From Thermoproteota archaeon (GTDB lineage Archaea; Korarchaeota; Korarchaeia; Korarchaeales; Korarchaeaceae): 64,000 nucleotides of DNA. The position numbers and the translations under genes are program-made. Within the stretch, counting starts at the first letter, position 1, and each line of letters starts with the position of its first letter. The DNA lies in contig JAOZGC010000001.1 in assembly GCA_027491915.1 (NCBI GenBank), positions 124,001 through 188,000 on the forward strand, read 5' to 3'. Positions 8,829-61,768 of this stretch are shown here, in pieces. Under the pieces are notes generated by a model. It did not search any database. It was given only the letters and a program-made list of their open reading frames with translations, and was not told the DNA's origin.

Positions 8829-10700
8829 GTGGAGCTCTTCCCCTACGAGCCTCGCCCCGGCCAGGAGGAGCTGATCGCGCTCGTCAGGAGGGCGGCGGAG
8901 AGGGGGGAGAGGCTGTGCGTCCACGCCCCGACCGGCTTCGGGAAGACCCCCGCCGTGCTGGCCGGCCTCCTCCAGGCGGCCAGGACCAGGGGGCTGAGGA
9001 TCCTGTGGGCCGTCAGGACGGGCAACGAGACGGACAGGCCGATAGAAGAGCTGAAGGAGCTGGCCAGATCCAGGGGAATCGCCGTCCCCGCCCTCTCCAT
9101 CAGGGGGAAGAGGGACATGTGCCTCCTCGGGAGGAGGCTGGGCGTGTCGGATTACGCCGGGGTCAGCGCCCTCTGCAGGCTCAGGAGGAGGGACTGCCCT
9201 TACTTCTCCAGGCTGACCGAGGTGATCCCCTCCCTCGACGGGCCAAAGACCTTCTCCGAGGTGCTTACCGAGGCCAAGTCCATGGGGGTCTGCCCGTACT
9301 TCTACCAGCTGCGCCTGCTGGAGGACGCGACGCTGGTGAGCCTCAGCTACAACTACGTCCTCGGCCCAACCGGCCGGGTCCTCAGGAGGGCCTTCAGATT
9401 CAGCAAGTCCATCCTGGTGGTAGACGAGGCCCACAACATACCCGACGCGGCCTGCAGCCTGAACTCGGACTCCATCACCCTAAACACGGTTGACAGGGCA
9501 ATCTCCGAGATAATCAAGTACTTCCCCGAGGAGACCGACCTGGTCCAGAAGGTGAGGGCCCTCAGGGCGGCCATGGAGGCGGTCTCCGGGCCGGTGACCG
9601 AGGACTCCACCTTCTCGCCGACGGACCTGCTGGTGGAGTCGGGCGTTGGCGACGAGGATCTGGAGAGGATGGCCTCCCTGGGGGAGGCGGTGTACAGGGC
9701 CCGGATAGAGGAGGGGAAGGTGCCCAGGTCCTACCTCCACAGGCTGGCCGAGTTCCTCTCCCTGGCCTCGGCGTCCGTGGGGGAGGAGGGGGTGGCCTTC
9801 CTGGTGACCAGGGAGTCCCGTGGGGTCAGATTCGAGGTCTGGGACATGAGGGCCCCCGAGATACTCGGGGAGGTCTGGCCCTCCTTCAGGGCGGTCGTGC
9901 TCATGTCCGGCACCCTGGCCCCGGTGGAGACGTTCGCCGAGGTGGCCGGCCTGGAGGGATGCTCCTCCAAGGTGTTCCCGTCCATGGCGGACCCCTCGAA
10001 GGTGGTCTCCCTGATAACCGCCGGGCTGACCACCAGGGGGGAGAAGATGTCAGAGGAGATGGTCGACGGCTATGTGGAGACGATCGGAGATTTCATATCG
10101 GCGGTTCCGGCCAACGTGGCCGTTTTCTCGGCGAGCTACAGGATACAGGGAGAGATACTCCCCGGGCTGGCGGAGGCCGCGGCCGAGACCGGCAGGAGGC
10201 TCCTGGTTGAGAGCGAGGGGATGACGGGTGACGAGGCCGCCAGGGTCCTCGCCGAGCTGAAGTCGGCAGCCAGGTCGGGGCATCACGCCGTCCTGGTCGC
10301 CCCGATGGGTGGGAGATTCGCCGAAGGAGCGGATCTGCCCGGGGAAGAGCTCGCCGCGGTCTTCCTGGTTGGGATACCCTTCGACAGGCCCAACACGAGG
10401 ACCAGGCTGAAGATCTCCTACTACTCCAGGCTCTTCCCCGGGAGGGGGAGGTTCATAGCCTACGTCGTGCCGGCCCTGAGGAGGGCGTCTCAGGCCCTGG
10501 GTAGGGTGATACGCTCCAGGTCTGAGGGGGGAGCCTTCGTTCTCGGGGACGAGAGGTACTCCTTCCGGAGGTACTTCGAGCTCCTCCCGGACTACGTCAG
10601 GACTACGGCCCGCGTCGTCAGGCCCTACGAGGTCGGGGACGAGGTCAGGTCCTGGTCCGAGGGGGCCCTCAAACGCCGTGGCGGTCCAGCAACTCCCTGA
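8829..10700 (+). CDS. XPD/Rad3-family Fe-S DNA helicase
   Basis: The 623-residue superfamily 2 helicase has Walker A APTGFGKT (33-40), DEAH box VVDEAH (198-203), and late motifs including LMSGTL and QALGRVIRS. Four cysteines at about 98, 116, 123 and 155, between motif Ia and motif II, match the 4Fe-4S cluster of XPD helicases. Such enzymes unwind DNA 5' to 3' in repair; archaeal members are 550-650 residues. The last 32 bases overlap the convergent spermidine synthase gene. The cysteine spacing suits archaeal XPD better than DinG. Confidence 0.88.
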   Translation: MELFPYEPRPGQEELIALVRRAAERGERLCVHAPTGFGKTPAVLAGLLQAARTRGLRILWAVRTGNETDRPIEELKELARSRGIAVPALSIRGKRDMCLLGRRLGVSDYAGVSALCRLRRRDCPYFSRLTEVIPSLDGPKTFSEVLTEAKSMGVCPYFYQLRLLEDATLVSLSYNYVLGPTGRVLRRAFRFSKSILVVDEAHNIPDAACSLNSDSITLNTVDRAISEIIKYFPEETDLVQKVRALRAAMEAVSGPVTEDSTFSPTDLLVESGVGDEDLERMASLGEAVYRARIEEGKVPRSYLHRLAEFLSLASASVGEEGVAFLVTRESRGVRFEVWDMRAPEILGEVWPSFRAVVLMSGTLAPVETFAEVAGLEGCSSKVFPSMADPSKVVSLITAGLTTRGEKMSEEMVDGYVETIGDFISAVPANVAVFSASYRIQGEILPGLAEAAAETGRRLLVESEGMTGDEAARVLAELKSAARSGHHAVLVAPMGGRFAEGADLPGEELAAVFLVGIPFDRPNTRTRLKISYYSRLFPGRGRFIAYVVPALRRASQALGRVIRSRSEGGAFVLGDERYSFRRYFELLPDYVRTTARVVRPYEVGDEVRSWSEGALKRRGGPATP

Positions 10701-51558: not shown

Positions 51559-52269
51559 TCAGGCCGACGGCTCGTCCCTGTATCCGAAGACTATCGACCT
51601 GAGCATCCCGTAGACCCAGCCGGCGTAGGCGTGCACTATGAGGACCACGAGCACCGCGGCCGCCAGGAGGAAGTGGGCCGCCCTGGTCGCCACGGCCTCC
51701 CTGGTCCCTATCACCAGGGCGGCTGCGCCCTGGACCTGGAGGTTGTCCGGTATCACGGCCGCGCACAGCCTGTGCACCTGCGCCAGCGGCTCTGGGAACA
51801 TCAGGGCCAGCCCGGTGACTATGATGCCCGCCCCCAGCAGGAACCAGAGCCACCAGGCGAGAACCTCGGTCGGGACTACCTTCTCCACGTAGTCCCCCCT
51901 GTCCTCATCGTACCTTATGGGTTCGGAGACGTGCCTGCCGGTGAACCAGGCCCTGACCTCCGCGAAGAAGAAGTCGAACCCGGCCGGTATCCTCCTGAGG
52001 CCGTACCACCTGTACTCCCCGTCCATGACGAACAGGTATATGAAGAACAGGGCGGTGGCCGCGAACGCCAGCCCCGTGACCTCGTGCAGCTGCCTGGCCG
52101 TACCCCTGGAGATTATCTCCATGTTCAGGGCCTCTGAGAGGCTTATTCCCGTTACCCCGAGGATCGCCCCCTCGGCCACCATGAGCCAGTGGACTATCCT
52201 GAACAGCAGGGAGTGCCTCCTTACCCTGACCCTCCCGCCGGCCTCACTCCTCGCCGCCATGGCCGCCAC
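51559..52269 (-). CDS. Membrane cytochrome b, formate dehydrogenase gamma/hydrogenase cytochrome b type
   Basis: The 236-residue protein has about four helices and likely heme histidines in LFRIVHWLMVAEGAILG, RQLHEVTGLAFAATALFF and VLIVHAYAGWVYGM. This is the cytochrome b561-type fold used by quinone-reactive partners of periplasmic redox proteins. It overlaps the upstream diheme cytochrome c gene by 14-26 bases and is probably its membrane partner. It is a second such cytochrome b, distinct from the one in the formate dehydrogenase operon. Confidence 0.85.
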   Translation of the reverse strand: MAAMAARSEAGGRVRVRRHSLLFRIVHWLMVAEGAILGVTGISLSEALNMEIISRGTARQLHEVTGLAFAATALFFIYLFVMDGEYRWYGLRRIPAGFDFFFAEVRAWFTGRHVSEPIRYDEDRGDYVEKVVPTEVLAWWLWFLLGAGIIVTGLALMFPEPLAQVHRLCAAVIPDNLQVQGAAALVIGTREAVATRAAHFLLAAAVLVVLIVHAYAGWVYGMLRSIVFGYRDEPSA

Positions 52270-53257
52270 CCACCGCCCTCTTTATCAGGTGGATCGCGAC
52301 TCCGCCGACGGCGGCTCCGGTCAGGAACCCGGCCCAGGTGTTGAGCGGGGTGCCGTAGGCGGTCTGGAGCCTGGCCTCGGCCACGTGGGGCCTCATGTCC
52401 TTGTGGCAGGTCTCGCACTGCAGGAATCCCCTGGTGAACTGGCCGCCCTCGTAGTCCTTACCCTTGTAGTGGCAGGTCCTGCACTCGGCCGTCGTCTGGG
52501 AGAGGGTTATCCCGGCGATGGCCTCCTCCAGCGCCCCCCTGAGGTCGGCGTTCAGGAGCTCCACCGCCTTGGCCGCGACGTCACCGGTCAGCCTGGCGCA
52601 CCTCTCGGACCTCTCCGCGGAGCCGCTCGCGTAGCCGGATATCTCGCACCACTTGCCCACGGATACGTGGCACAGCACGGACCCGCTCACGTTCTGGGGG
52701 AGGACCTTGTCGCTCTTGTACTTGGGGACCAGGAACTGGTGGCCGCTGGCGTAGGAGTTGGACGTGTCGCTCGGGAAGGGGGTGATCTCGTACCACCTCA
52801 TGAGGGCCTTTCCTATCTTGTCCCAGTTCTCGCTCACCATGGTGACGGCAGAGATCGACCCGTTGAGCGCGCCGCACAGGGTTCCCCAGGCCACCCCCCC
52901 GCCGTAACCGTACTGCATCATCCCGTGGAGGTGCCTCTTCTCCTCCAGGGCGCTCAGGACCTCCTCCCTATCGGGCAGCGGGAGTAGCGTGTAGGGATAT
53001 CCCACCTGCTCCTTCAGGGCCGTCATGATCGCCCAGAAGCTCCCTCCCCCACACTCGAAGGAGTAGTACCCGAGGTGGCCCAGCTTCCTCACGTACTCCG
53101 GATCCAGCTCGACGTAGGGCCACGGCAGCTCCGGGGCTCCCTGCTCCTCCTGGGCCACGACCGGCTCCACCCTGAGGGACGCCACCACGCTCCCGACTGA
53201 GGCGACGGCCAGCCCCTTCAGGAAGGATCTCCTGCTGGTGTCAACCAAGTTCGACAC
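52244..53257 (-). CDS. Tat-exported diheme cytochrome c, split-Soret type
   Basis: The 337-residue protein has a twin-arginine signal (TSRRSFLKGLAVASVG, RR at 9-10) and a core with GMMQYGYGGGVAWGTLCGALNG, as in split-Soret cytochromes of sulfate reducers. Two CxxCH heme sites follow (CRTCH 259-263, CETCH 281-285) and then a C-terminal membrane helix. Extra cysteines (Cys69, Cys128, Cys196, Cys204, Cys220) could bind a cluster. The open frame begins at ATG 53281, but that ATG lies inside a TATA-like TATTATAAAT; GTG 53257 is about 25 bases downstream, fitting a leaderless start. The Ccm operon lies just beyond the partner cytochrome b. Confidence 0.85.
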   Translation of the reverse strand: MSNLVDTSRRSFLKGLAVASVGSVVASLRVEPVVAQEEQGAPELPWPYVELDPEYVRKLGHLGYYSFECGGGSFWAIMTALKEQVGYPYTLLPLPDREEVLSALEEKRHLHGMMQYGYGGGVAWGTLCGALNGSISAVTMVSENWDKIGKALMRWYEITPFPSDTSNSYASGHQFLVPKYKSDKVLPQNVSGSVLCHVSVGKWCEISGYASGSAERSERCARLTGDVAAKAVELLNADLRGALEEAIAGITLSQTTAECRTCHYKGKDYEGGQFTRGFLQCETCHKDMRPHVAEARLQTAYGTPLNTWAGFLTGAAVGGVAIHLIKRAVGGGHGGEE

Positions 53258-53279
53258 CTTAGCCGGGCCCGTGGCCGTC

Positions 53280-53289
53280 ATTTATAATA
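53280..53289 (-). promoter_or_regulatory. TATA element for the cytochrome c operon
   Basis: TATTATAAAT on the minus strand is about 25 bases from GTG 53257. A second AT-rich block around 53375-53400 (minus GATATAAATTTA) lies further upstream and may add regulation. Confidence 0.5.
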
Positions 53290-53408: not shown

Positions 53409-54383
53409 CTAAGCCAAGACCCACATGGGGGAGCGCGCCCCCGAGGTCCTCTCCAGGAGCCCCTTCCCCCTCAGGCTCTTGAGAGCGCTGTAGATCGTCC
53501 TCGGTGGGAGCCCCGTCCTCCTCTTCAGCTCGGAGGTGCTCATGGGGCCGAACTCCTTGATCACAAAAAGCACGAACCTCTCGGAGGGCGACAGGTCGCC
53601 GGGCTCCCGCTTGCTCTTTATCAGGAAGGTGTCCCCCCTCACCCCGACCCTGATGCTCTCCAGGGACAGGACGTCCCCCCACCCGATGTTCCCCAGGTTC
53701 ACGTCCGGCCCCAACCTCCTGATCAGCTCTATCTGCTGCCCGGTCCTGGGGGCCTCGAATATGATCTTGGAGTGATCGAACGTGGATGCGATGGCCGAGA
53801 GCCTGTGGGACAGTATGTTGCCGCTCTCGTCGAATATGCAGGATGCCCGCCCGAACTCCCTCCCCTCTATTACGACCTTCCAGACGGATCCCCCGCGGAA
53901 GGCTGCGTCTATTTCCGCCGTTACCTCCCTCAGGGACAGCCTCCTGGTTGGATCCTTCTTGCCCACCTCGAATGTCACCTTGAATCCCTGCTCCCTGGCG
54001 TGGTCGGCCAGCTCGAGGCGCTCCTCGAGCGGCACGTCTATTATGCCGGAACTCACCTCGGCCACGTTGAATCCCACCTCCCAGGCTCTCTCCAAGAACT
54101 CCCTGGCCCTCCCCCTGACGTAGCTGAGCTCGAACAGGGTTCCCCCGAACCCCACGTCCAGGTCGAACTGGTGATACAGCGATATCCTCTCCCTCAGCAC
54201 CTCCTCATCGACCAGCAGCGGGAGGCCCCACCCGAGCTTCACGTAGTCGACGTAGGGCGATCTCTCCTCCAAGCCCAGGCAGCCGGTCGGGCCGTCTAAC
54301 TTGTCTAAAACCATCGTGATCCCGATCTCCCTCGGCTTCCCCGGTCTCCTGTTCAGCAGCCCCTCCCAGAGCCGCCCCGGCAT
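53409..54383 (-). CDS. ComA-like phosphosulfolactate synthase fused to a winged helix
   Basis: The first ~245 residues match the ComA (phosphosulfolactate synthase) TIM barrel: REIGITMVLDKLDGPTG, DYVKLGWGLPLLV, VGFGGTLFEL, VTFEVGKKDPTR, WKVVIEGREFG and GPDVNLGNIGWGDVL. ComA makes the first intermediate of coenzyme M from phosphoenolpyruvate and sulfite. The C-terminal ~75 residues are a winged helix: SERFVLFVIKEFGPMSTSEL, RTIYSALKSLRGKGLLER. So this may be a ligand-sensing regulator built on a ComA barrel, or a bifunctional enzyme. The open frame begins at TTG 54434, but the family match and a TATA about 28 bases upstream favour ATG 54383. Confidence 0.85.
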   Translation of the reverse strand: MPGRLWEGLLNRRPGKPREIGITMVLDKLDGPTGCLGLEERSPYVDYVKLGWGLPLLVDEEVLRERISLYHQFDLDVGFGGTLFELSYVRGRAREFLERAWEVGFNVAEVSSGIIDVPLEERLELADHAREQGFKVTFEVGKKDPTRRLSLREVTAEIDAAFRGGSVWKVVIEGREFGRASCIFDESGNILSHRLSAIASTFDHSKIIFEAPRTGQQIELIRRLGPDVNLGNIGWGDVLSLESIRVGVRGDTFLIKSKREPGDLSPSERFVLFVIKEFGPMSTSELKRRTGLPPRTIYSALKSLRGKGLLERTSGARSPMWVLA

Positions 54384-54406: not shown

Positions 54407-54416
54407 TATTAAAATA
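54407..54416 (-). promoter_or_regulatory. TATA element for the ComA-winged helix gene
   Basis: TATTTTAATA on the minus strand lies about 28 bases before ATG 54383 with no ribosome binding site, fitting a leaderless transcript. Confidence 0.55.
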
Positions 54417-55385: not shown

Positions 55386-55595
55386 TCAGTCCCTCCCCTC
55401 AACCAGGAACGCCACCTTCACGTCCGCCCTGTACTCGCTTATCTCTCCCCCCTCCACCTTGGCCGTCATCCCGACGATCTCGACCCCCACTATGTTCCTG
55501 ACGGTCTTGCCCGCCTCCTTGACGGCGTTCCTGGCGGCGTCCTCCCACCCGACCTTGGAGGTCCCCACGAGCTCTATCACCTTGACTATCGGCAT
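55386..55595 (-). CDS. Dodecin-family protein
   Basis: The 69-residue protein matches dodecin: MPIVKVIELVGTSKVGWEDA, KEAGKTVRNIVGVEIVGMTA and the closing strand YRADVKVAFLVEG. Dodecins form hollow 12-mers that store flavin. The tryptophan of flavin dodecins, in the NIxWxEV segment, is glycine here (NIVGVEI), so flavin stacking is doubtful. A long upstream open frame is not needed: ATG 55595 has a TATA-like TTATCTT about 26 bases upstream. Confidence 0.85.
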   Translation of the reverse strand: MPIVKVIELVGTSKVGWEDAARNAVKEAGKTVRNIVGVEIVGMTAKVEGGEISEYRADVKVAFLVEGRD

Positions 55596-55678
55596 ATCCC
55601 GGGGGCGCCCGACTTCAAGATAACCCTTTGGGCGTCGGCGGCAGGGTAGGGCCACGCGGACCGGCCGCCCCGCCGTCG

Positions 55679-57157
55679 TCACGATAGGTACCTCCTCTCC
55701 AGGTACTCCAGGAACCTCTCCGGGTTCAGGTCTTCCCCCAGCGCCCGCCTGATCAACTCCCTCGGGGGATACACCGCGCCCCACCTGTGTATCCTCTCCC
55801 GCAGGAAGCCCATTATCCGGTCGAACCTCCTCCCGGCGACCATGCCCTCGACGTCCCCGATGGCCGCCGCCACCTGGGCCGCGAGCATCCTCCCCACGGC
55901 GTAGGTGGGGAAGTAGCCCACGTACCCCTGGGACCAGTGCACGTCCTGGAGCACCCCCTCACTGTCGCTGGGCGGCCTGATCCCCACCAGCCTCTCCATC
56001 TCGTCGTCCCACACCTGCGGCAGCTCGGGCACGGATATCCCCCCCTCCATGATCCCCTTCTCGATCTCGTACCTGAGGTACACGTGGAGGACGTACTGGA
56101 CCTCGTCGGCCTCCACCCTTATCGGCTCCGGCCTCACCATGGTTAGGTAGGAGCGGGCCTCGTCGAGGCCGTATCTCCTCAGGAAGGGGAGGGCCATTGC
56201 CATGGCGTCCCAGAACACCTCCACGAAGGGGGCGCTCCTACCCACGACGGACTCCCAGAATATCGACTGGGACTCGTGAACCCCGTCCGACACTCCCTCT
56301 CCCACGGGGGTGTACCTGTACGCCTCGTCCACGTTGAGCTCGTAGGTCGCGTGGCCGAACTCGTGCACGGCCGCCAGGAGGGACCTCCTGAAGTCCCTCC
56401 CGTGGTACCAGGTGGTTATCCTTACGTCGTCCAATCCCAACCCGACGGTGAACGGGTGGGCGGACACGTCCATCCTGGCCCTGTCCCAGGGGAACCCCAT
56501 GGAGGAGAGCACGTGCTCGTTGAGCATCCTCATCCTTCCCTCTTCGTACTCCTCCCGCTCCAGCGGGTGCTCGTCCGGGGTCCTCTCCCTGGCCCTCCTG
56601 AAAAGGTTCGACAGCCGCCCCACCACGGAGAACATCTCCTCGCAGTCCCTGACCGTCAGCCCCTCCTCGTGCCTGTCCAGGAGGGCGTCGTAGGGGTGAG
56701 CCTCGTACCCCAGGAGCTCGGCCTTCCTCCTCTGTATGTCGAACACCCTCTCCAGGTGGGGGGCGAAGGAGCGGAAGTCCCCCCTCTCCTTGGCCCTCAC
56801 CCAGACCCTGAAGGCCTCGGTCGTCACCCTAGCCTCCTCCTGAAGGAGCTCGGGCGGAATCTTCCTGTAATACTCAATCTCCCTCTTCAGAACCCTGATG
56901 ACGCCCGCCTCGAAGTCGTTGATCGGTCTCGCCGAATCCACGAGGCCTGTGAACTCCGGATGCGTCATCAATCCCTGAAGCATCTTCCTTATGGCTGCCC
57001 GGGCCTCCCCCCTCTCGGCAAATCCCCCTCGGGGTATGTAGGTCTCCATGTCCCACCCCATGAGGGCCAGGGCATGTTGGAGGGACCAGATATCCCTGTA
57101 CCTCCGCAGGATCTCCCTAACCTCTCGGCTCTCTGCCGGGGTCCTCTCCCCAGACAT
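55679..57157 (-). CDS. Carboxypeptidase Taq, M32 family
   Basis: The 492-residue zinc metallocarboxypeptidase has HEFGH at 265-269 and the downstream glutamate in HESQS (295), plus the family blocks DVSAHPFTVGLGLDDVRITT and PVGEGVSDGVHESQSIFW. The C-terminal YFPTYAVGRMLAAQ is also conserved. M32 enzymes remove C-terminal residues in the cytoplasm and are often heat-stable. The ATG follows GAGGGATG. It stands alone. Confidence 0.95.
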   Translation of the reverse strand: MSGERTPAESREVREILRRYRDIWSLQHALALMGWDMETYIPRGGFAERGEARAAIRKMLQGLMTHPEFTGLVDSARPINDFEAGVIRVLKREIEYYRKIPPELLQEEARVTTEAFRVWVRAKERGDFRSFAPHLERVFDIQRRKAELLGYEAHPYDALLDRHEEGLTVRDCEEMFSVVGRLSNLFRRARERTPDEHPLEREEYEEGRMRMLNEHVLSSMGFPWDRARMDVSAHPFTVGLGLDDVRITTWYHGRDFRRSLLAAVHEFGHATYELNVDEAYRYTPVGEGVSDGVHESQSIFWESVVGRSAPFVEVFWDAMAMALPFLRRYGLDEARSYLTMVRPEPIRVEADEVQYVLHVYLRYEIEKGIMEGGISVPELPQVWDDEMERLVGIRPPSDSEGVLQDVHWSQGYVGYFPTYAVGRMLAAQVAAAIGDVEGMVAGRRFDRIMGFLRERIHRWGAVYPPRELIRRALGEDLNPERFLEYLERRYLS

Positions 57158-57307: not shown

Positions 57308-60300
57308 GTGGGTAAGGGGGGCTTCCCGCTGGCGGCGATCCTGGCGATACTCCCGCTTATCCCTGCCGCGCTTCCGGCGCGGGCGGGCGGAGGGGTTGAC
57401 CTGTCAGGGAGGGTTGTGGGCCCGGGTCCCCGGGTCGCGCCGCCCGAGGGATTCTCCCTCCTGCTCTCCGCCGAGGTGGCGCCCGCCGCGCGCGAGTACG
57501 ACCCGCCCGCCCTTGCGCCCGACCTGCCCTCGGGCCTGACGGATCCCGACGATGGGAGGGAATCGGTCTCGGCGACGGTCCCTCCGGGGACCGTCTGCCT
57601 GACTCCAAGGGGGTGGCGGGAGGCCCCCCACCCGAGGCTGGCGGCCTACGACGGGGGGACGTGCGACGCCGGTCCCCCGGGAGACGGGGCAGTAACCCTG
57701 GTCTTGGCCGCCCCGGGCCGGCCGGCCGGGCCGTCGGGCGGGGATCCCACCTACGTCGTCAACAATACCGCCGACTCCGGTCCGGGCAGCCTCAGGTGGG
57801 CCCTGTCCGAGGCGGCGTCCGACGGGCTCCCCTCCAGGATAACCTTCGACCTCCCCGAGACCGACCCCGGGTACAACGGGACCCACTGGGTGATACACCT
57901 CTCCTCACCCCTGACCGTGTCCGGAGAAGCGACCGACCTGGACGGGACCACGCAGGCCGGTTACTCCGGATCCCCGGTGGTGGTGATAGACGGCTCGTCC
58001 CTCTCCTGGGACGCGGTCACGGTGGCCGGGGACAACTGCACCATATCGGGGATCGCCGTCGTGGGACCACCTCCGTCGGGAGGATTCAACTACGCCTGTC
58101 TCTGGGTGAACTCAGGCGTCGAGAACCTGACCGTGAGATCCTCGGTCTTCAGGGGACCCTCGCCGCCGACCGGCTCGGGGGCCAGCAGATCCTACAGCTG
58201 CTACTACGGGATCTTCCTGGACGATCACTCGGAGGGCGCCCTAATCGAGGGATCCACCTTCCGGTGGGTCGACAGGGGCATCATGGCCAGGAGGTACTAT
58301 CACGGGGAGAGGGCCCCGGTCATCAGGGCCTGCGACTTCGAGGACGTCGCCTACGGGGTGAAGCTCTACGGGGTCGCCCGGGGATCGTCGGTGGTCCTGG
58401 TTGAGGGCTCCACCTTCAACCGCTCTTACTACTACGGAGTTTACTCCTACGTGGCCGCCGTCCGGATCGAGAACTGCATCTTTGAGGCCTCTCCCGTCTA
58501 CTGGATGCCCGACTGGTGGACGTGGACCAGCGCCGTGGGACTCGTCGGCACCACCAGCGCCGTCGGGTGGTACGACGTCGTCAGGCCCGAGATCAGGAGA
58601 TCCACCTTCATCCAGGGATCCGCCGAACCGCCGCCCTTCGACGGCGGAACCGCCCTCTGCGGGTACTTCTCGGACCCCCTCGTGACGGACGTGGTCGTCA
58701 GGCAGGAGAAGCCCGTCCAGGCCGTGATGATCCGTGGGGGGACTGGATACGATCCCTCCATCCCCTCCCTCTCCAGGTGGACCCTGAGGAACGTCACCCT
58801 GATTGGCTTCGGCCCTGGAGGGCAGAGCCACGTGGGCGTGCTCGCCTCGGGAGGGGGATACGGCATGTCCGGGGTGGAGGTCATATCCTCCGAGATCGAG
58901 AACTTCACCGTCGGCGTCAGGCTGTGGAATCCTGGGGGGCCCTCCAGCAGGGTGGACTACGCCTGGATCGGCTGCACCAGGATCTCCGGATGCTCGGACG
59001 CCGCCCTCTCCGTAGAAGACGACTCCAGGAACGTGACGGTCAACAGGTCCAGGTTCGAGTCCAGCGGGGTGGGGGTCAGGGTATCCCCATCGGCCTCGGA
59101 CGTCCTGATATACGACGACGTCTTCGACTGCGTCGAGAATTCCGAGGATCCCGCGGTCGACTGCGTCGAGAATTCCGAGGATCCCGCGGGGGCGGCCTCC
59201 TGGTACGTTTCCCCGAGGCCCGGGCCCAACGTGGTCGGCGGGCCCTGGATAGCAGGAAGCTGGTGGAGCGACTACCTGGGATCCGACCTGGACGGGGATT
59301 GGCTCGGGGATACGGACTTGCCCCACAGGGGGGACGTGCACCCCCTCCTGATCCCGCCGGACCCGGCCAAGGCGGACCTGGAGGAGGTCGAGCTGACGTA
59401 CGCAGATCCCGGAGGACCCCCCGTCTCCCCCGGGGACGAGCTGGTCTTCTCCGTCCTGGTGGTCAACTCCGGCTCCCTGGACGCCCTGGCCAACCTGACC
59501 CTGAGGCTGCCCCCGGGCCTGACGGGGCCAACCTTCGTCTCCCCGCCTCCGGGGGCCGTCAACTCCTCTGGCCCTGGATTGGTGTCCGTCCTCGGCATAT
59601 CCGTGCCGGCCGGATCCTCGGCCGCCGTGACGTTCGGGGCCCAGGTGTCCGCCCCGTCAGGATCCTCGGTTCCGGTCCAGGGTTGGGTGACCTACTCCGA
59701 GGTGGGGTGCGGCTGCTGCGCTGGGGCGGAGCCCACAGACGATCCGACCACCCCGGCGCCGGACGACCCCACGGTCGTGGAGGTCGCGGGCGCAGCCTCG
59801 CTGAGGATCGAGGTCTCGGGCATCCCGCCGTCGGCGTCCGTGGAGGTCTACGTGAACGGCTCCCCGGCCGGAACGGTCTCCCCCGGATCTCCCCTGGATC
59901 TCTCGCTGGATCCCGGGTGGGTGGAGGTGGACGTGGGGTCCCTGTCCGTCGGCCCGGGTACGAGGCTGGAGGCCAGGTGGTGCTCGGTCAACGGGACCCG
60001 GACGGCGAGGCCTGCGTCCCTCCGCCTCGAGAGATCTGCGCTGATCTCTTTCAACTTCTCCGCCAAGCACAGGGTTGAGGCCGTCTCAAGGTTCGGCTCA
60101 GTCCGGGGTGCCGGATGGTACTGGGCCGGCTCCCGGGCGTCGGTCTGCGTCTCCCCCACGGAGTTCGAGGGACCCACGGTCAGGGCCCACTTCCGCGGGT
60201 GGTCCGGGTTCCCGGTCGGCTCCAGGTGCGCCTCCTTCAGGGTGGTCTCCCCCACGAGGCTGACGGCCCTCTGGCGAGTGGATTATCTGGTGGAGGTGGA

Positions 60301-61768
60301 CTCCCCGTTCGGCCGCGCCTCGGGGGCCGGCTGGTACCCGGAGGGTTCGGTCGCCGAGATCAGGGTCCCCGGATCGGTGCCCCTGGGTCCGGGTTCCAGG
60401 GCCGTCTTCTCCCGGTGGGCCGGCGACGCGGAGGGGTCGTCTCCGACCTTGAGGCTCGTGGTGGACTCTCCCAAGAGGATCTCGGCGATCTGGTCCCTGG
60501 AGCACCTGGTCGTGGTCTCCTCCGACCCGCCGGGCGGGCTAAACCTGAGCGAGTGGGTCCCGGCCGGTGAGACCTTCTCCTTCGAGGCCCCAGCTATCAT
60601 GAACGTGTCCGGTTCGCCCTGCGCATTTTCCGGGTGGTCCGGCTCGGTCTCCTCCCAGGAGAGGAGGATCAGCCTGGTGGTCGACGGCCCCAAGAGGCTG
60701 GTGGCCTCCTGTTCCCGGTGGGCGTCCGTGGAGGTCAGGACCTCCCCGGCGCTCCCCATCGATCTGGGGATCGGTAGGGTGGAGGTTGGCTCCGAGGTGT
60801 GCGTCGAGGCGCCCGAGTTCTTCCAGAACGAGAGCGGGGTCAGGTGGAGATTCTCCGGCTGGGAGGGGTTCCCGGGGGAGGGGAGGGAGATCTGCCTCAC
60901 CGCCCTCGGGAGGAGCACCCTGACCGCCACGTACTCCAGGGAGTACCTGGTCCGGGTCGAGGCCCCCGGGGAGCTGGGGCCGTTCGGCTCCGGGTGGTAC
61001 CCCGAGGGGGCGGAGGCGGAGGTCGGCGTCTCCGCCACGACCGCCGGAGGGGAAGGCGGAGCTCGGATCAGGCTGCTCGGGTGGGAGACGCCCTCCGGGA
61101 GCCGCCCCCCGGTCCGGAAGATCCGGATCAGGGTGGTTGGACCGACCTCGGTCAGGGCCGTGGCGGCCCGGGAGGTGAGGGTTAGCATAGAGCCGCGCCT
61201 CCCGGAGGAACTGCCGCCCCCGTCCGGCCTCCTCATGCTGGCCCGGAAGAGGGTCGAGGTCAGGTTGGAGGAGCCCGTGGACCTCTACGTTCCCCTGAAC
61301 TCGACGATCGAGATATACGCCCGACCGATCGAGCCGCTGGGTCTCTTCTCGGCCAGGGTGCTCCTCGGGGTCGAGGTATCCCGGGGCTCGTGGTCCACCC
61401 CGAGTCCGGGCGCGGTCAGGTTGGTGGTCGGAGGTCCGACCTCGGTGAGGCTGGAGTTCTCCCAGCTCTTCTCCTACCTGCCCGCGGCCGCCGCGGCGTC
61501 GGCCGCGACGGCCCTCATCCTGGGCAGGAGGAAGGGGAGGGCGGAGGCCGCGTCCCAAACGCTGATCGCGGCCCTCTCCCTCGGGGTGATCCCCCTGCTC
61601 CTGAGGACGGCGTGGATCGGCCCGGCGGTCGCGATCGCCTCGACCACTTGGTGCTTCCTCGCCCCCTGGGTCGCCCTCTCCCTTGCCCTGTCGGCGGCCT
61701 CCGCCGCCGTCCCCAGGTCGGCCAGGGCGCGCGGCTCCCCCGGCCGACCTTTATTTACTCGCGAGTAA
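57308..61768 (+). CDS. Giant surface protein: beta-helix, DUF11-like domain, GWY repeats
   Basis: The 1486-residue protein has an export signal (LAAILAILPLIPAALPARA). A right-handed beta-helix follows from about 148 (VVNNTADSGPGSLRWALSEA) to about 650, the fold of surface adhesins and polysaccharide lyases. A DUF11-like beta-sandwich lies at about 684-824, then about five repeats of about 75 residues at 915-1295 with the pattern GAGWYPEGS and later SGW or RWAG. Three membrane helices end the chain. No catalytic residues are obvious, so adhesion or a cell-wall role is likely. The GTG has a TATA-like CTTAAATC 34 bases upstream. It holds a 33-base tandem duplication. Confidence 0.85.
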   Translation: MGKGGFPLAAILAILPLIPAALPARAGGGVDLSGRVVGPGPRVAPPEGFSLLLSAEVAPAAREYDPPALAPDLPSGLTDPDDGRESVSATVPPGTVCLTPRGWREAPHPRLAAYDGGTCDAGPPGDGAVTLVLAAPGRPAGPSGGDPTYVVNNTADSGPGSLRWALSEAASDGLPSRITFDLPETDPGYNGTHWVIHLSSPLTVSGEATDLDGTTQAGYSGSPVVVIDGSSLSWDAVTVAGDNCTISGIAVVGPPPSGGFNYACLWVNSGVENLTVRSSVFRGPSPPTGSGASRSYSCYYGIFLDDHSEGALIEGSTFRWVDRGIMARRYYHGERAPVIRACDFEDVAYGVKLYGVARGSSVVLVEGSTFNRSYYYGVYSYVAAVRIENCIFEASPVYWMPDWWTWTSAVGLVGTTSAVGWYDVVRPEIRRSTFIQGSAEPPPFDGGTALCGYFSDPLVTDVVVRQEKPVQAVMIRGGTGYDPSIPSLSRWTLRNVTLIGFGPGGQSHVGVLASGGGYGMSGVEVISSEIENFTVGVRLWNPGGPSSRVDYAWIGCTRISGCSDAALSVEDDSRNVTVNRSRFESSGVGVRVSPSASDVLIYDDVFDCVENSEDPAVDCVENSEDPAGAASWYVSPRPGPNVVGGPWIAGSWWSDYLGSDLDGDWLGDTDLPHRGDVHPLLIPPDPAKADLEEVELTYADPGGPPVSPGDELVFSVLVVNSGSLDALANLTLRLPPGLTGPTFVSPPPGAVNSSGPGLVSVLGISVPAGSSAAVTFGAQVSAPSGSSVPVQGWVTYSEVGCGCCAGAEPTDDPTTPAPDDPTVVEVAGAASLRIEVSGIPPSASVEVYVNGSPAGTVSPGSPLDLSLDPGWVEVDVGSLSVGPGTRLEARWCSVNGTRTARPASLRLERSALISFNFSAKHRVEAVSRFGSVRGAGWYWAGSRASVCVSPTEFEGPTVRAHFRGWSGFPVGSRCASFRVVSPTRLTALWRVDYLVEVDSPFGRASGAGWYPEGSVAEIRVPGSVPLGPGSRAVFSRWAGDAEGSSPTLRLVVDSPKRISAIWSLEHLVVVSSDPPGGLNLSEWVPAGETFSFEAPAIMNVSGSPCAFSGWSGSVSSQERRISLVVDGPKRLVASCSRWASVEVRTSPALPIDLGIGRVEVGSEVCVEAPEFFQNESGVRWRFSGWEGFPGEGREICLTALGRSTLTATYSREYLVRVEAPGELGPFGSGWYPEGAEAEVGVSATTAGGEGGARIRLLGWETPSGSRPPVRKIRIRVVGPTSVRAVAAREVRVSIEPRLPEELPPPSGLLMLARKRVEVRLEEPVDLYVPLNSTIEIYARPIEPLGLFSARVLLGVEVSRGSWSTPSPGAVRLVVGGPTSVRLEFSQLFSYLPAAAAASAATALILGRRKGRAEAASQTLIAALSLGVIPLLLRTAWIGPAVAIASTTWCFLAPWVALSLALSAASAAVPRSARARGSPGRPLFTRE
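59126..59191 (+). repeat. 33-base perfect-reading tandem duplication in the surface protein gene
   Basis: Two copies of the same 33 bases, differing only in the last bases, add a second DCVENSEDPA motif. The duplication keeps the frame and falls at the end of the beta-helix, where repeats can lengthen the fiber. Confidence 0.85.

Follow-up and report, generated by a model that had tools for sequence, protein, structure and literature searches.

A phosphosulfolactate-synthase-like barrel fused to a winged helix: a candidate regulator of sulfur assimilation in archaea

The window, i.e. the whole stretch of 64,000 nucleotides that was analysed, contains a gene in which a phosphosulfolactate (PSL) synthase-like barrel of the ComA type is fused to a winged-helix domain. 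The fusion protein is probably (at a probability of roughly 0.6) a one-component transcriptional regulator that derives from PSL synthase, senses sulfite and/or phosphoenolpyruvate (PEP) and tunes sulfur-assimilation genes. Direct support comes from its architecture, its single origin, its divergent pairing with cysH(-sat), a palindrome, the retention of core residues and the loss of a lysine. A more far-reaching version, according to which a coenzyme M enzyme was converted only once into a sulfite/PEP-reading factor controlling assimilatory sulfate reduction in two phyla, is offered tentatively, at slightly less than even odds.

The gene forms a single reading frame with zero internal stops across 324 residues, as determined by translation of the window (Table 1). 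The Pfam ComA model (PF02679) matched residues 12-251 with 230.6 bits (cutoff 25.2), and residues 263-316 were matched by four winged-helix models (score/cutoff): MarR_2 (28.3/27), TrmB (27.5/25.6), HTH_27 (26.7/22.2) and MarR (25.8/24.6). The AlphaFold2 model, generated with an alignment of 52 sequences, reached a mean pLDDT of 90.6 and comprised the barrel and, C-terminal to it, a winged helix with three helices (266-278, 283-290 and 294-306), with a recognition helix at about 294-306 and a two-strand wing (310-314 and 319-323). Its top PDB match in Foldseek was 1QWG, the ComA protein of M. jannaschii (TM 0.89 by target length, 37% identity over the structural alignment). According to Pfam and AlphaFold2, MarR/TrmB effector or dimerisation regions are absent, which leaves the ComA barrel as the sole domain apart from the winged helix. 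Third-position GC amounted to 0.87 for the barrel and 0.92 for the winged helix, which marks both parts as coding sequence read in a shared frame. The barrel running into a winged helix, as proposed by a first-pass annotation, was thus borne out by Pfam and AlphaFold2 within one open reading frame; of the two objections raised there, a frameshift and a fold lacking the winged helix, both were checked and neither applies.

Table 1. Positions of the fusion gene, its parts and its neighbours in the window.
Feature	Position	Strand	Remarks
Cytochrome b561-type membrane protein	51559..52269	-	PF01292 above cutoff
Split-Soret-type cytochrome c, Tat signal	52244..53281	-	NF047622 159 bits (below cutoff of 400); PF09719 above cutoff
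ComA-barrel/winged-helix fusion ORF	53409..54383	-	324 aa; ATG at 54383, stop at 53409
Winged helix	53412..53597	-	Residues 263-324; Pfam models and AlphaFold2
Linker	53598..53630	-	Residues 252-262; low model confidence, pLDDT <50 at 257-259
PSL-synthase-like (beta/alpha)8 barrel	53631..54350	-	Residues 12-251; PF02679 and Foldseek
Thr214 codon	53742..53744	-	FEAPxK lysine position, after strand 7; never Lys in fusions
Lys143 codon	53955..53957	-	Aligns with Lys137 of M. jannaschii ComA; invariant in all groups compared
TATA-like box, A/T-rich	54408..54416	-	About 25-33 bp upstream of ATG; assigned by sequence, without statistics; leaderless-type promoter

The distribution of the fusion was surveyed in 29 genomes of the window's phylum and, more widely, in 394 archaeal genomes, followed by the phylum and class of two matches. 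ComA was present in 8 of the 29 genomes, as a fusion in seven members of one family and as a standalone protein in one further genome (G002). The same fusion occurred in three families (f25, f68 and f180) of a second archaeal phylum, which, judging from the character of its genomes, we take to be probably Thermoplasmatota; one more sequence, from family f153, is of equal length and lies inside the fusion clade. A maximum-likelihood tree built from the barrel placed all 48 fusions in a single clade (support 97/97) and likewise grouped the seven fusions of the window's phylum (100/98). Their common grouping indicates that the ComA/winged-helix fusion most likely arose once. The fusion, which the first-pass annotation had suggested looking for elsewhere, was found in six relatives and in many genomes of the second phylum. 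That two genes were joined artificially, by a frameshift or in the assembly, was ruled out and carries a negligible probability, since 48 sequences of the same architecture from many genomes fall into one clade. Viral contigs were searched and contained no relatives, and no earlier description of a ComA/winged-helix fusion was found in the literature searched.

Among all 49 fusion loci examined (ORF clustering and targeted search), a few of which are near-copies of each other (e.g. L125 and L143), cysH adjoined the fusion gene in 28, always in divergent orientation. The pairing was seen in the second phylum, in 21/24 loci of f68, 4/4 of f180 and 3/13 of f25, and cysH was followed by the ATP sulfurylase gene (sat) in 18 loci. 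The identities of CysH (APS/PAPS reductase) and ATP sulfurylase were confirmed by NCBIfam; the product of CysH is sulfite. The remaining 10 of the 13 f25 loci had no adjacent cysH, and in four f25 loci of this kind the fusion gene was neighboured by a gene for a type I phosphodiesterase, a homologue of which (45-49% identical) adjoins ATP sulfurylase in the window's phylum. This family, with genes near fusions in one phylum and beside ATP sulfurylase in another (L130-L133; L190, L191, L192), is possibly an uncharacterised sulfate-assimilation enzyme.

The intergenic regions between cysH and the fusion gene in f68 and f180 (~80-185 bp, mostly 100-140 bp) were analysed with a palindromic mixture model. 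They contained a putative operator, a palindrome of 19-21 bp (best 21-mer aATAtGnAAAwTTTnCaTATt), with a log-likelihood ratio (LLR) of 147.8, compared to 52.1 +/- 2.6 (maximum 55.7) in 12 dinucleotide-shuffled sets. When only one sequence per genus was used, the LLR was 73.5 (37.5 +/- 3.6 in plain shuffles). With leave-one-genus-out matrices, the top site across the full 5-18 kb of the locus fell into this intergenic region in 18/25 loci, and its empirical frequency was <0.05 in 23/25; these statistics are inflated because related loci share ancestry. When the palindrome constraint was lifted, the fitted motif retained only partial symmetry (correlation of 0.32 with its reverse complement). 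The weakest sites among the f68 loci were those of L057 and L141, whose gene starts are uncertain. Exact matches to the strict pattern were rare, at 0-3 places per genome in five genomes; three genomes had matches, at 1-3 places, and the cysH/fusion locus was one of them each time. The remaining strict-pattern sites in the genomes scanned lie in or near genes without an evident sulfur link and give no sign of a wider regulon. TATA-like boxes were present near -28 of both divergent genes in many loci, so that the putative site typically sits upstream of each promoter in the space between the two; such an arrangement would suit an activator as well as a dual regulator. An equivalent search in f25 returned no convincing operator, its borderline motif consisting partly of a TATA-like box.

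ComA adds sulfite to PEP (PMC3087415), and these substrates led to the proposal of a sulfur-assimilation regulator that senses sulfite and/or PEP. We infer its ligand, its binding to the motif and the sign of the regulation as follows. The barrel would bind sulfite, as released by CysH, and/or PEP or a product analogue, the bound ligand would alter the binding of the winged helix to the operator-like palindrome, and the altered binding would tune the sulfur-assimilation genes together with the regulator's own gene in a feedback loop. Of the two readings given by the first-pass annotation, self-regulated coenzyme M synthesis and a barrel turned sensor, the latter is the better half; synteny and the operator-like site argue for it, while the ligand and the loss of catalysis would be its presumptive parts.

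The active site was compared between the fusions, 30 mostly methanogen-type standalone ComA proteins and 13 other standalone homologues. K49, E85, E109, E139, K143, E173, R175, E176, E210, N229 and N232 were kept in all or nearly all fusions. Among them, Lys143 corresponds to the residue of M. jannaschii ComA that we take to be the catalytic base. Position 214, in contrast, is occupied by Lys in 30/30 of the methanogen-type and 12/13 of the remaining standalone proteins (42/43) and is replaced by Glu in 41/41 fusions of the second phylum and by Val, Thr or Leu in those of the window's phylum. The fusions also lack the Arg154 and Asp146 that the methanogen enzymes have, Arg246 is mostly lost, and two residues are deleted after EVGKKxP; the window protein has T214, V154 and V246, with the Asp146 position deleted. 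Comparison with the ComA active site, as recommended beforehand, thus gave a divided answer, with a conserved core and the loss of Lys214, Arg154, Asp146 and, mostly, Arg246. This pattern would fit a retained binding pocket with changed chemistry; the intact core residues, taken by themselves, would fit an active enzyme equally well.

Whether the fusion could serve coenzyme M synthesis was judged from a profile search for comB and comE in 32 genomes, including two methanogen controls. The cutoff of the ComE model was exceeded solely in these two controls (best score in the fusion genomes tested, 49.7 bits or less), and mcrA was found only in the two methanogens and in none of the fusion genomes tested. 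PF04029 (ComB phosphatase family) had no match in any fusion genome tested from f25 or the window's phylum, but was present in 12/12 genomes tested from f68/f180 and common in control genomes lacking ComA. In the window's own genome (assembly 91% complete), comB and mcrA were undetected and comE had no match above cutoff. The earlier remark that the fusion gene lies apart from other coenzyme M genes consequently holds in a stronger form, and the suggested search of this assembly for comB and mcr returned neither. Against TIGR03849, the isofunctional ComA model of NCBIfam, the window protein scored 233.2 bits and two fusions of the second phylum 219.6 and 219.5 bits, all below the cutoff of 280. 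Genome G002, from the same phylum as the window, has a standalone comA that shares a contig (L015; G002:C22, 13.8-16.2 kb) with a comE-like gene and comB; its ComE-model score was 218.4 (cutoff 221.5), and the mcrA model had no match. Its standalone comA represents the canonical com cluster of the phylum, separate from the fusions, and G002 may possess a coenzyme M pathway with mcrA undetected. A self-regulating enzyme of coenzyme M biosynthesis, to which the ComA proteins as nearest solved structures would point, is largely refuted and highly improbable, given that mcrA and above-cutoff comE matches were lacking in all fusion genomes tested, that those from the window's phylum had no comB and that G002 possesses its canonical comA, along with comB and a comE-like gene, as a separate gene; the self-regulation once suggested for the window's gene found no support, its genome lacking comB and mcrA matches and any comE match above cutoff.

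Another explanation is a trigger enzyme, i.e. a barrel that still acts as PSL synthase and traps sulfite on PEP, with the winged helix coupling this activity to the expression of sulfur-assimilation genes. The conservation of K143, E139, E173, R175, E176, E210, N229 and N232 in nearly all fusions and the PF04029 proteins of f68/f180 speak for this arrangement, but in the window's phylum and in f25 the tested fusion genomes lack this family, which is common without ComA, the fusions have Lys214 replaced and Arg246 and Arg154 mostly lost, and their protein stays below the TIGR03849 cutoff, so that we regard it as unlikely. Quite unlikely, too, is a sensor of another ligand (a sulfonate, a phospho-acid or a sulfate-like anion) that is linked to sulfur only indirectly, or a protein that regulates redox genes in the organism from which the window stems. 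The loss of Lys214 and the altered loop after RE.G could shift the choice of ligand, and the next genes in the window encode cytochromes, whereas the pairing with cysH, which spans two or three families, and the association with Sulf_transp genes argue against these alternatives.

That association was seen in the window's phylum, where a Sulf_transp gene (PF04143, YeeE-type) lies directly downstream of three of the seven fusions (two of these loci are from one genus and nearly identical). Sulf_transp occurred in 6/7 fusion genomes versus 3/22 other genomes of the phylum (Fisher p = 0.001, uncorrected for kinship). If the role deduced in the second phylum is transferred to the window's phylum, the targets of the regulator are likely sulfur-uptake genes. 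The window's genome (91%-complete assembly) contained neither a Sulf_transp nor an ATP sulfurylase gene. A classical cysH was rejected there, as the sole match to the PAPS-reductase domain was a 572-aa frame of a kind shared with fusion-free relatives. The gene for the split-Soret-type cytochrome c follows the fusion gene on the same strand at a distance of 127 bp, and genes for the cytochrome b561-type protein and cytochrome c maturation also lie downstream, confirming the redox gene neighbourhood that had been pointed out; the split-Soret cytochrome/cytochrome b genes are the sole positional candidate in this genome and may or may not be a target. Inverted repeats around the window gene were only short and chance-like, and the fusion-gene promoters of the phylum alone had no motif above shuffles at any width. 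An operator shared between fusion and Sulf_transp genes was discarded, as its signal above shuffles was driven by the conserved promoters of orthologous Sulf_transp genes. Just upstream of the Sulf_transp TATA box, a conserved element around GCAAATAAGACAGATGTCT was observed in this phylum (L173, L175, L177, L178, L179).

The fusion shares its barrel fold and core active-site residues with ComA (PF02679/TIGR03849; 1QWG), from which it differs by the C-terminal winged helix, the sub-cutoff TIGR03849 score, the missing coenzyme M pathway, the lack of Lys214, Arg246 and Arg154 and the two-residue deletion after EVGKKxP. With MarR/TrmB-type domains it has the winged-helix fold and above-cutoff Pfam matches in common, whereas its putative sensor half is a metabolic-enzyme barrel instead of sugar-binding or dimerisation parts. 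An IMPDH-related winged-helix protein of Methanothermobacter binds the mcr promoter, with its CBS domains as suspected sensor (PMC3087415). Both proteins are relatives of metabolic enzymes that carry a winged helix, with binding to a target promoter predicted for the fusion; the IMPDH-related protein belongs to an unrelated enzyme family and differs in its suspected CBS-domain sensor and its mcr promoter target. Enzyme-derived one-component regulators are known as a kind, and the version based on ComA would be new. In bacteria, sulfur assimilation or the response to sulfite is controlled by CysB, CymR and the LysR-type protein YeiE, which belong to other protein families and have other sensor folds than the fusion. 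The literature searched described neither an archaeal regulator of assimilatory sulfate reduction nor any regulator with a ComA-derived sensor, such as a ComA-based archaeal counterpart to CysB, CymR or YeiE. The family yields a precise prediction, with one palindrome, one promoter pair and two candidate ligands used by the parent enzyme. An annotation as 'phosphosulfolactate synthase' in a genome need not mean that coenzyme M is made, a caution that bears on claims of methane or alkane metabolism in uncultured archaea.

Several further observations were made in the course of this analysis. L058 (G177, 9051-9920) and L059 (G171, 8829-9644) encode distant PF02679 homologues of 271-289 aa with strongly divergent motifs (RGPYY, FEA.DP and YGLWGDK), which are likely a different enzyme of the PF02679 superfamily. 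In the window, the C-terminal part of the frame at 55386-55784 (-) appears by eye similar to dodecin, a small flavin-binding protein. The frame at 57308-61768 (+), 1486 residues long, has repeated 'GSGWYPEG..'-like stretches and C-terminal hydrophobic segments and resembles a large surface protein; in L010 and L013, similar-looking repeats occur in proteins encoded close to the fusion gene.
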